From assembly GCF_000024925.1 (NCBI RefSeq), contig NC_013521.1, positions 744,001 through 808,000 on the forward strand: DNA of 64,000 bases, given 5' to 3'. Source of the DNA: Sanguibacter keddieii DSM 10542. GTDB taxonomy: Bacteria; Actinomycetota; Actinomycetes; Actinomycetales; Cellulomonadaceae. The notes beneath the pieces were generated by a model, which made no database searches, had not been told where the DNA came from, and saw only the letters and a program-made list of their open reading frames with translations. The translations under genes and the position numbers were made by a program. Shown here in pieces: positions 21,931 through 53,205 of the stretch (positions within the stretch are counted from its first letter, which is position 1; each line of letters opens with the position of its first letter).

Positions 21931-22002
21931 GCCACCAGTGTGCGGCCACCCGCCGACAGGTGCGGACAGCAGAGGACGACAGCCCCGCCCAGGGCGCGCG
22001 GG

Positions 22003-22010
22003 TATAGCCT
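22003..22010 (+). promoter_or_regulatory. Promoter -10 of the trpS leader transcript
   Basis: TATAGCCT contains TAGCCT (22005-22010), which ends 6 nt before the ATG of the leader peptide. The leader peptide itself would therefore be translated from a leaderless end. No good -35 is seen. Confidence 0.55.
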
Positions 22011-22016
22011 GGCCCG

Positions 22017-22058
22017 ATGATCACGCGCGCATGGTGGTGGCTGCCTCAGCAGCCGTGA
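22017..22058 (+). CDS. Putative Trp-rich leader peptide of trpS
   Basis: A 13-codon frame ATG...TGA encodes MITRAWWWLPQQP with three consecutive TGG codons (22032-22040). Three adjacent Trp codons in a 13-residue peptide, directly upstream of tryptophanyl-tRNA synthetase and 6 nt after a -10 box, are what ribosome-mediated attenuation needs. When charged tRNA-Trp is scarce the ribosome would stall on the TGG run and change folding of the RNA that follows (next feature). That the peptide is translated is inferred, not shown. Confidence 0.75.
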   Translation: MITRAWWWLPQQP

Positions 22059-22143
22059 CCTGTCGTGTCCCCGAGCTGCTCGCCGCAGCCGGGTCGACAT
22101 CGTCGTGCACCCTCGGTCTGGGTCGAGCCGCTCCCCACCGAGG
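22039..22143 (+). promoter_or_regulatory. Putative Trp attenuator with four mutually exclusive segments and SD-sequestering hairpin
   Basis: Segment 1 GGCTGC (22039-22044), segment 2 AGCAGCC (22048-22054), segment 3 GCTGCT (22075-22080) and segment 4 GCAGCC (22085-22090) can pair 1:2, 2:3 or 3:4, the classical attenuator layout. Segment 1 overlaps the last Trp codon. Further down, CCTCGGT (22111-22117) pairs with ACCGAGG (22137-22143), which includes most of the trpS Shine-Dalgarno. No U-run follows 3:4, so control could be translational rather than by termination. Confidence 0.6.
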
Positions 22144-22151
22144 AGCCCCAG

Positions 22152-23240
22152 ATGACCACCGCACCACCCCAGACCAGCACCACGACCGCGTCGGTCGCCG
22201 CCGCCCGTACCCGGAGCCTCGCGCTCGAGGACGAGATCGCCCGCGACCCGTCGAGGTTCCGGGTCCTCACGGGGGAGAGGCCGACCGGTGCGTTGCACGT
22301 CGGCCACTACTTCGGGACCCTCACCAACCGTGCTCGGCTCCAGCAGGCGGGGGTCGAGCTGCTCATGGTGATCGCGGACTACCAGGTGATCACCGACCGC
22401 GACGAGCCCGGTGACCTGCGGTCAACGGTCCGCGAGATCCTCCTCGACTACCAGGCCGCCGGGATCGACCCGGAGCGCACCACGGTGTTCACCCACTCCG
22501 CGGTGCCCGCCCTCAACCAGCTCGTCCTGCCGTTCCTCAGCCTCATGAGCGTGGCCGAGCTCGAGCGGAACCCGACGGTCAAGGAGGAGGTGCGGGCGAG
22601 CGGCGGGCGGGCCATGAGCGGGCTGATGCTCACGTACCCCGTGCACCAGGCGGCCGACATCCTCTTCTGCCGGGCGAACCTCGTGCCCGTCGGCCAGGAC
22701 CAGCTGCCGCACCTCGAGGCGACCCGCACCGTCGCCCGCAGGTTCAACCACCGGTTCAGCCCGGCTTGCCCGTACTTCCCCGAGCCCGACGCGCTGCTCG
22801 CGCCGTCCCCCACGATCCTCGGGTCCGACGGCGCCAAGATGAGCAAGAGCCGTGGCAACAGCCTGCTCGTCTCGGCGACCGAGGACGAGACCGCAGCGTT
22901 CGTCCGACGGTGCGTCACCGACGCCGAGCGCCACGTGACCTACGAGCCCGACCGCAGGCCTGGTGTCGCGAACCTGCTGACCCTCGCGTCGCTGTGCACC
23001 GGGGCCCCGCCCGAGGCGGTCGCCGACGAGGTCGGCGCTCAGGGGGCAGGGGTGCTCAAGGCGCTGGTGACGGAGGCGCTCGTCGAGCACCTCCGACCGG
23101 TGCGGGCCCGTCGCGCGGAGCGGGTCGGCTCGGGCAGCGACCCGCTGGAGGTGCTCGAGCGGGGGAACGCGCGGGCGAACGAGATCGCCGCAGCGACGCT
23201 CGACGACGTCCGCGAGCTCATGGGGACGTCGTACCGCTGA
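22152..23240 (+). CDS. trpS: Tryptophanyl-tRNA synthetase
   Basis: 362 residues from the ATG at 22152, which has AGGAG 6-7 nt upstream; in-frame codons further upstream cross the leader region. This class I synthetase has the HIGH-like GALHVGH (46-52) and KMSKS (229-233) motifs. TrpRS-specific TYPVHQAADILF and VPVGQDQLPHLE stretches bind Trp and ATP. It charges tRNA-Trp. The N-terminus (TTAPPQTSTTTASVAAART) is a low-complexity extension. The Trp leader peptide upstream implies induction on Trp-tRNA shortage. Its 3' end overlaps the convergent TetR gene by 23 bp. Confidence 0.96.
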   Translation: MTTAPPQTSTTTASVAAARTRSLALEDEIARDPSRFRVLTGERPTGALHVGHYFGTLTNRARLQQAGVELLMVIADYQVITDRDEPGDLRSTVREILLDYQAAGIDPERTTVFTHSAVPALNQLVLPFLSLMSVAELERNPTVKEEVRASGGRAMSGLMLTYPVHQAADILFCRANLVPVGQDQLPHLEATRTVARRFNHRFSPACPYFPEPDALLAPSPTILGSDGAKMSKSRGNSLLVSATEDETAAFVRRCVTDAERHVTYEPDRRPGVANLLTLASLCTGAPPEAVADEVGAQGAGVLKALVTEALVEHLRPVRARRAERVGSGSDPLEVLERGNARANEIAAATLDDVRELMGTSYR

Positions 23241-47905: not shown

Positions 47906-52994
<5,089 letters not shown>

Positions 52995-53072
52995 ACACTC
53001 AATTTTTGTGTGCTACGCGTCCACTGTGCGGTTCTCGGGTAACGGCCGAGAACCGGTTGACAACCCAATAGA

Positions 53073-53190
53073 GTTACGGCGGTCATAGCGAGGGGGAAAC
53101 GCCCGGTCCCATTCCGAACCCGGAAGCTAAGCCCCTCTGCGCCGATGGTACTGCACGGGAGACTGTGTGGGAGAGTAGGTCGCCGCCGGA
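53073..53190 (+). rRNA. rrf: 5S ribosomal RNA
   Basis: About 118 nt: GTTACGGCGGTCATAGCG...CGGTCCCATTCCGAACCCGGAAGCTAAG...GGTCGCCGCCGGAC. The first and last bases pair (TACGGCGG with CCGCCG), and loop A/B motifs are normal. Confidence 0.96.
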
Positions 53191-53205
53191 CAATCATTCA
53201 ACGAG

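Follow-up and report, generated by a model that had tools for sequence, protein, structure and literature searches.

Tryptophan-codon leader and competing RNA helices upstream of an auxiliary tryptophanyl-tRNA synthetase gene in Sanguibacter keddieii and other actinobacteria

The trpS locus of S. keddieii

Positions 22003 to 22152 of the window, the whole 64,000-nucleotide stretch of S. keddieii DNA analyzed here, lead into a gene for a tryptophanyl-tRNA synthetase (TrpRS) whose translation contains HVGH and KMSKS (Table 1). The best two solved relatives of the product are 1yi8 and 2a4m, the second of which was deposited as TrpRS II. Since the same genome encodes another TrpRS (C1:2872451-2873476) that is 36% identical to this product, the gene was taken to encode an auxiliary enzyme. 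An earlier sequence-only reading of this DNA had called the gene trpS without recognizing an auxiliary copy; it is a second TrpRS gene and not the housekeeping one. Indolmycin-resistant second TrpRS enzymes have been reviewed, and resistance is reported for the Streptomyces enzyme in the portion of the review available (PMC9437257). Published work links the class to which this gene belongs to resistance against indolmycin, so how the gene is induced matters for the timing of spare-enzyme production. Elsewhere in the window, a 16S-23S-5S rRNA operon occupies positions 47906 to 53191 of the + strand.

Table 1. Features of the S. keddieii trpS leader region, with predicted RNA pairing partners (window positions)
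Feature	Position	Strand	Remarks
Predicted −10 box TAGCCT, TANNNT register	22005..22010	+	6 nt 5′ of leader ATG
Leader peptide frame MITRAWWWLPQQP	22017..22058	+	ATG 22017-22019, TGA 22056-22058, 13 sense codons
Segment 1, GGCTGC	22039..22044	+	pairs with segment 2
Segment 2, GCAGCC	22049..22054	+	pairs with segment 1 or 3
Segment 3 and start of 3:4 loop, CCCGAGCTGCTCG	22070..22082	+	pairs with segment 2, 4 or 5
Segment 4, GCAGCCGGG	22085..22093	+	closes 3:4 hairpin 22070-22093
CCTCGGT	22111..22117	+	complementary to ACCGAGG (22137-22143) over the Shine-Dalgarno sequence
Segment 5, CGAGCCGCTC	22124..22133	+	pairs with segment 3 (22073-22082) at 9 positions out of 10, with a single U·C mismatch
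Shine-Dalgarno sequence GAGGAG of trpS	22140..22145	+	read from the sequence
Auxiliary TrpRS gene, 362 aa	22152..23240	+	TIGR00233, 221.7 bits (cut-off, 176.75)

The sequence-only reading had described a 13-codon frame with three TGG codons, a −10 box 6 nt before its ATG and a distance of 93 nt to trpS, all of which were confirmed in the sequence. The Trp codons occupy 22032-22040, the gap of 93 nt runs from the leader stop to the trpS ATG at 22152, and TATAGC was read at 22003-22008. A TANNNT motif about 6 nt 5′ of the start codon is the usual spacing for leaderless actinobacterial transcripts. Judged by this promoter spacing, the leader transcript is probably leaderless, with its start at the leader ATG.

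Conservation of the leader across relatives

Loci of this TrpRS type were collected from 199 relatives and from 296 genomes of the class, of which 38 had a match at E 1e-70. Further loci came from named genomes (80 kept of 232) and from three other families, labelled f38, f37, and f35; some named loci (Streptomyces, Kitasatospora, and Actinomadura) were placed in the f37 and f35 groups by assumption. Leaders were sought as a TANNNT motif followed after 6 or 7 nt by an ATG or GTG frame of 7 to 32 codons containing adjacent Trp codons (WW). Such a leaderless frame was present upstream of 135 of the 239 loci with enough upstream sequence, a count in which some genomes figure twice through two collections, and the same pattern occurred in 0 of 9,560 dinucleotide shuffles of the 239 upstream regions. 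For S. keddieii itself, none of 5,000 shuffles of the trpS upstream sequence contained the pattern, and it occurs once in the window on both strands taken together. Short frames are common in GC-rich DNA, and the frame could be due to chance or encode a small protein without a regulatory role; that is extremely unlikely given these counts and the fact that frame, stop, and RNA helices are conserved together.

In the TrpRS tree, the clade holding the S. keddieii protein had the leader in 41 of 41 rows, and the leader label required 10 changes over the tree against a shuffled mean of 71, a difference that shows clustering only. Of 78 genuine leader rows, in which one genome figures twice, 74 had TANNNT at 6 or 7 nt ahead of the start codon; another two rows, outside these 78, were spurious frames. 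The remaining four (L089, L093, L098, and L100) carried WWW leaders without a strict TANNNT box and were scored as leaderless-negative in the locus count, in the 28-genome comparison described below, and in the tree. Among named Streptomyces and Kitasatospora relatives of the S. keddieii gene, WW leaders were identified at L154, L168, L185, and L192. No Trp leader was found at L055 (G039) or L059 (G015), two loci of this TrpRS type from one genus of the S. keddieii family; one of these two genomes has a housekeeping TrpRS and the other has none at E 1e-60. The sequence-only reading had proposed that loss of the TGG run or of the frame in close relatives would count against an attenuator. Apart from these two same-family genomes, what was found instead was conservation of the leader frame, the Trp run, the leaderless promoter spacing, and the competing hairpins described below.

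The leader of S. keddieii (L004) and that of the same-genus genome G005 (L063; MNFNRLGWWLR) are of different types, and their TrpRS proteins, 57 to 58% identical, do not group together in the tree. This suggests that each gene was acquired separately along with its leader. The TrpRS of four loci (L132, L134, L137, and L139) titled Xylanimonas cellulosilytica, Sanguibacter keddieii 250_SKED, and Trueperella pyogenes groups with those of Schaalia and Actinomyces, and these titles may be wrong. At trpE of S. keddieii (L243, the sole match over the family cut-off), no Trp leader was found in the stretch scanned. Upstream of a weak trpE-family homologue in the same genome, a VKLWSWWC frame ending in a stop (L244:768-794) had no TANNNT at leaderless spacing and is probably due to chance.

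Competing helices 1:2, 2:3, and 3:4

The sequence-only reading described no downstream structure. In an alignment of 50 leaders of the order, the proportion of canonical pairs was 96.7% for helix 1:2, 96.8% for 2:3, and 95.0% for 3:4. Three loci with a wrongly cut trpS start (L037, L045, and L069) were left out of this alignment, of the stalling model, and of the own-order Shine-Dalgarno tests. Helix 1:2 had four compensatory cells and helix 3:4 had nine (shuffled mean, 1.1), and neither number was reached by any of 500 shuffles. Helix 2:3 was nearly invariant in the order and showed little covariation, with one compensatory cell, a value reached by 146 of 500 shuffles. Leaders of the other families differ in sequence and, by eye, show the same mutual pairing. 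Complementarity for three mutually exclusive helices thus appears to be conserved.

The 3:4 hairpin of S. keddieii has 2 T in the next 8 nt, that is, no U-tract. Counting at least 4 T in 8 nt as a U-tract, one follows the 3:4 hairpin in 13/47 leaders of the order, 0/14 of f38, 21/32 of f37, and 19/22 of f35. The whole S. keddieii leader was not unusually stable (z, −1.10), as 20 of 200 shuffles were as stable.

T-boxes are the usual control of synthetase genes in Firmicutes, according to the part of PMC1262725 consulted. Near trpS, no Rfam family was identified at gathering score, with chance-level matches only at 21950-22220, and a T-box or other riboswitch was ruled out in the absence of an Rfam match, including to the T-box covariance model. 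If trpS were instead controlled by a T-box, by a different riboswitch, or by a protein that binds its RNA, the leader frame would be incidental, against the conservation of the Trp codons and the frame; this is highly improbable.

A possible additional helix, 3:5

Segment 5 lies just upstream of the trpS Shine-Dalgarno sequence and is complementary to segment 3 and the loop, a relation first noticed by eye. The 3:5 pairing was within the best 5% of 200 shuffles in 38 of 53 leaders; for S. keddieii, 5 of the 200 shuffles were as good. A second test applied a single rule to all families (the loop together with the final 8 nt of the 5′ arm, 500 shuffles), after 9 of 128 leaders had been dropped for want of a compact hairpin and with single-Trp-codon leaders excluded. 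The pairing was in the best 5% in 67 of the 119 leaders overall, distributed as 32/42 in the S. keddieii family, 2/5 in others of the order, 14/14 in f38, 13/32 in f37, 6/22 in f35, and 0/4 in the rest. As controls, the segment upstream of segment 3 scored 7/119 and the end of the leader frame scored 16/119, nine of the latter in f37; in that family the end of the frame overlaps segment 1, a segment similar to segment 3.

Over the 50 aligned leaders, 3:5 was 85.7% canonical. It had 22 compensatory cells compared with a shuffled mean of 7.8, and 0 of 500 shuffles reached 22, although such cells count sequences rather than events and eight of them represent one change common to related rows. Twenty of the 22 sit in three columns that belong to the 3:4 loop in the majority of rows. 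Coarser measures of covariation were reached more often by shuffled sequences (double-change pairs by 140/500 and extra pair types by 27/500). Support for 3:5 was weaker with a longer, automatically chosen segment 3 (11/48 and 20/73; controls, 7/48 and 7/73), a choice that took other hairpins in some leaders and was applied with single-Trp-codon leaders excluded.

Two other partners for segment 5 were rejected. Pairing of segments 4 and 5 was weaker than 3:5, with 10 versus 34 of 47 leaders of the order in the best 5%, 0 versus 14 of 14 in f38, and 7 versus 13 of 32 in f37; f35 was reversed, with 11/22 for 4:5 and 6/22 for 3:5. Pairing of segments 1 and 5 was also weaker, with 9/44 in the order, 1/14 in f38, 10/32 in f37, and 3/22 in f35.

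Predicted closure of the trpS Shine-Dalgarno sequence

The direct duplex of segment 5 with the Shine-Dalgarno sequence was not above chance in S. keddieii, as 56 of 300 shuffles were as good, a figure that also applies to the complementarity of CCTCGGT. It was in the best 5% in 4/44 leaders of the order, which is chance level, 2/14 of f38, 10/32 of f37, and 8/21 of f35. On a MAFFT alignment, pairing of segment 5 with the Shine-Dalgarno sequence was 62.0% canonical, a count that decides nothing with the Shine-Dalgarno columns unaligned. The predicted cost of opening the Shine-Dalgarno sequence exceeded that of 95% of shuffled spacers in 10/44 leaders of the order, 5/14 of f38, 16/32 of f37, and 14/22 of f35.

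Equilibrium models with assumed ribosome footprints were used to estimate opening costs in different ribosome states. With the ribosome at the leader stop, the S. keddieii Shine-Dalgarno sequence was predicted to cost 5.7 to 7.7 kcal/mol to open. The cost was 3.3 to 3.9 kcal/mol with the ribosome stalled and 3:4 barred, and 9.2 to 9.3 kcal/mol when 3:5 was barred as well. With a stalled ribosome and nothing barred, it was 8.7 to 8.8 kcal/mol; in this model 3:4 still wins and the Shine-Dalgarno sequence stays closed, so an on state must be kinetic. Across the 50 leaders, the combination of a stalled ribosome and barred 3:4 was predicted to make the Shine-Dalgarno sequence easier to open than a ribosome at the stop in 28 and harder in 10. 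Helix 2:3 alone was rejected as a translational on state, as it left the S. keddieii Shine-Dalgarno sequence as closed as in the off state (9.2 to 9.3 kcal/mol).

Relation to known leader-peptide systems

Some form of ribosome-mediated attenuation very probably operates at 22003-22152. The sequence-only reading had proposed a ribosome-mediated attenuator here, and with leader, Trp run, spacing, and competing hairpins conserved, the kind of mechanism holds up. It had also called a synthetase gene under leader-peptide control notable, which is not supported, such control being already in print (a prediction in 2005, a study in 2010, and work on Streptomyces lividans); this type of control on trpS is not new in kind. 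The 2010 study, by Vecchione and Sello in the Journal of Bacteriology, reportedly describes, as its title has it, ribosome-mediated transcriptional attenuation of an auxiliary, antibiotic-resistant TrpRS gene, said to be trpRS1/SCO3334 of Streptomyces coelicolor. Going by that title, the two systems share an auxiliary TrpRS gene and ribosome-mediated attenuation, whereas the S. coelicolor system is titled transcriptional and the S. keddieii leader has a hairpin without a U-tract plus the putative 3:5 helix. From the features of a trpL-type attenuator, S. keddieii appears to have the conserved run of cognate codons and helices 1:2, 2:3, and 3:4 but not the U-tract terminator. It was therefore filed as working like, and related to, a trpL-type attenuator and not as a transcriptional member of the type.

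In 2005, attenuators were predicted for trp operons of Actinobacteria and ahead of trpS in some Streptomyces species, with Streptomyces avermitilis trpS2 named in the text (PMC1262725, available in part). Like the S. keddieii leader, they combine two or three UGG codons in a row with antiterminator and terminator hairpins that have a GCC-type core in common; by contrast, the part of that paper seen has U-tract terminators for trp operons and no description of a 3:5 helix, and S. keddieii has no U-tract and a predicted 3:5 helix. In S. lividans TK24, a leaderless trpL2 has been mapped before trpS, as stated in the accessible part of PMC8079986. There, as in S. keddieii, where leaderlessness is predicted, a leaderless leader peptide precedes trpS and there are two hairpins, and that part of the source reports no U-rich stretch; S. 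lividans trpL2 (MMTRTCTQLWRAA) has one Trp codon compared with three in S. keddieii (PMC8079986). The exact trpL2 leader had 0 matches in 392 genomes of one genus, among which S. lividans may not be included. The LEU element of leuA, as far as the same part of PMC1262725 describes it, also links leader codons to the Shine-Dalgarno sequence of the gene by long-range pairing, but in that element it is the leucine codons that pair with the Shine-Dalgarno sequence, and attenuation of the classical kind is argued against in the paper. In the literature searched, where the 2010 paper is represented by its title, neither a 3:5 helix nor a Shine-Dalgarno tier was found described for trpS. The 3:5 helix is possibly novel and makes the S. 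keddieii leader a plausible variant of the known type.

Proposed mechanism

Comparison among relatives supports the leader, the Trp run, the promoter spacing, and complementarity for helices 1:2, 2:3, 3:4, and 3:5; we infer stalling, the sequence of steps, induction when Trp runs short, the consequence for translation, and the role of 2:3 as the first antagonist of 3:4. Transcription would start at the leader ATG. With ample Trp-tRNA, the ribosome would reach the stop and cover segment 2, segments 3 and 4 would pair, and the trpS Shine-Dalgarno sequence would be closed by segment 5 together with its neighbors (off). If Trp-tRNA is short, the ribosome would stall on the TGG run, and segment 2 would hold segment 3 off segment 4. 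The longer 3:5 helix, reaching into the 3:4 loop, could next capture segment 3 and open the Shine-Dalgarno sequence (on). Where relatives have a U-tract, termination of transcription at the 3:4 hairpin is expected as well. Because the S. keddieii 3:4 hairpin has no U-tract, output there is probably partly translational, or Rho-dependent, on support that is weaker and mixed. Taken as a whole, this full version, in which ribosome-mediated attenuation of the auxiliary TrpRS gene includes 3:5 and the Shine-Dalgarno sequence, falls just on the probable side. In ermC-type translational attenuation, a stalled leader ribosome opens a sequestered Shine-Dalgarno sequence, and what is sensed is a drug in the ribosome. 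The S. keddieii proposal would share the opening by a stalled ribosome and would differ in sensing uncharged tRNA; the folding models favor a Shine-Dalgarno sequence that is closed when off and open on stalling, whereas the duplex test in the order was at chance.

Attenuation of transcription only, in which 2:3 versus 3:4 sets intrinsic or Rho-dependent termination and neither 3:5 nor Shine-Dalgarno pairing has a role, would agree with the title of the 2010 auxiliary-TrpRS paper, with the U-tracts after 3:4 (13/47 in the order, 21/32 in f37, and 19/22 in f35), and with the failure of the direct test of segment 5 against the Shine-Dalgarno sequence in the order (4/44). It accounts poorly for S. 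keddieii (2 T in 8) and f38 (0/14), which have no U-tract, for the covariation of 3:5, which lies downstream of any terminator decision, and for a Shine-Dalgarno opening cost that was raised in all four groups. A mechanism confined to transcription is a serious contender but well short of even.

The version with 3:5 and Shine-Dalgarno opening can be extended, tentatively and at a little less than an even chance, to a two-tier hand-over. One Trp-codon sensor would set the state of segment 3; termination (2:3 versus 3:4) would be decided first, and 3:5, seeded in the 3:4 loop, would then decide Shine-Dalgarno opening, such that transcripts escaping the terminator would be checked twice. Lineages would keep either both tiers (those with a U-tract) or the translational one only (S. 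keddieii and f38). Should 3:5 act in this way, transcription and then translation would be driven by a single ribosome-based sensor. Such an arrangement could also explain leader peptides for which no terminator is evident; this gap had been pointed out in 2005 for other operons of actinobacteria, in the part of that paper available (PMC1262725).

Association of the leader with a second TrpRS

According to the survey, auxiliary TrpRS genes under probable leader-peptide control occur in Sanguibacter, in its family, and in several more families of actinobacteria, and this control is tied to a second TrpRS being present. Among 28 selected genomes, with housekeeping-type TrpRS called at E 1e-60, a WW leader was present in 10 of the 13 with such an additional enzyme and in 2 of the 15 lacking it (Fisher P = 0.0016). 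One genome counted among the 13 without, G183 (L056), has a frame with a single Trp codon. The two exceptions, G076 (L012) and G095 (L014), retained the leader with no housekeeping match at E 1e-60. In both, the leader-bearing trpS appears to be the sole TrpRS gene of the genome, and their 3:5 pairing is among the weaker ones.
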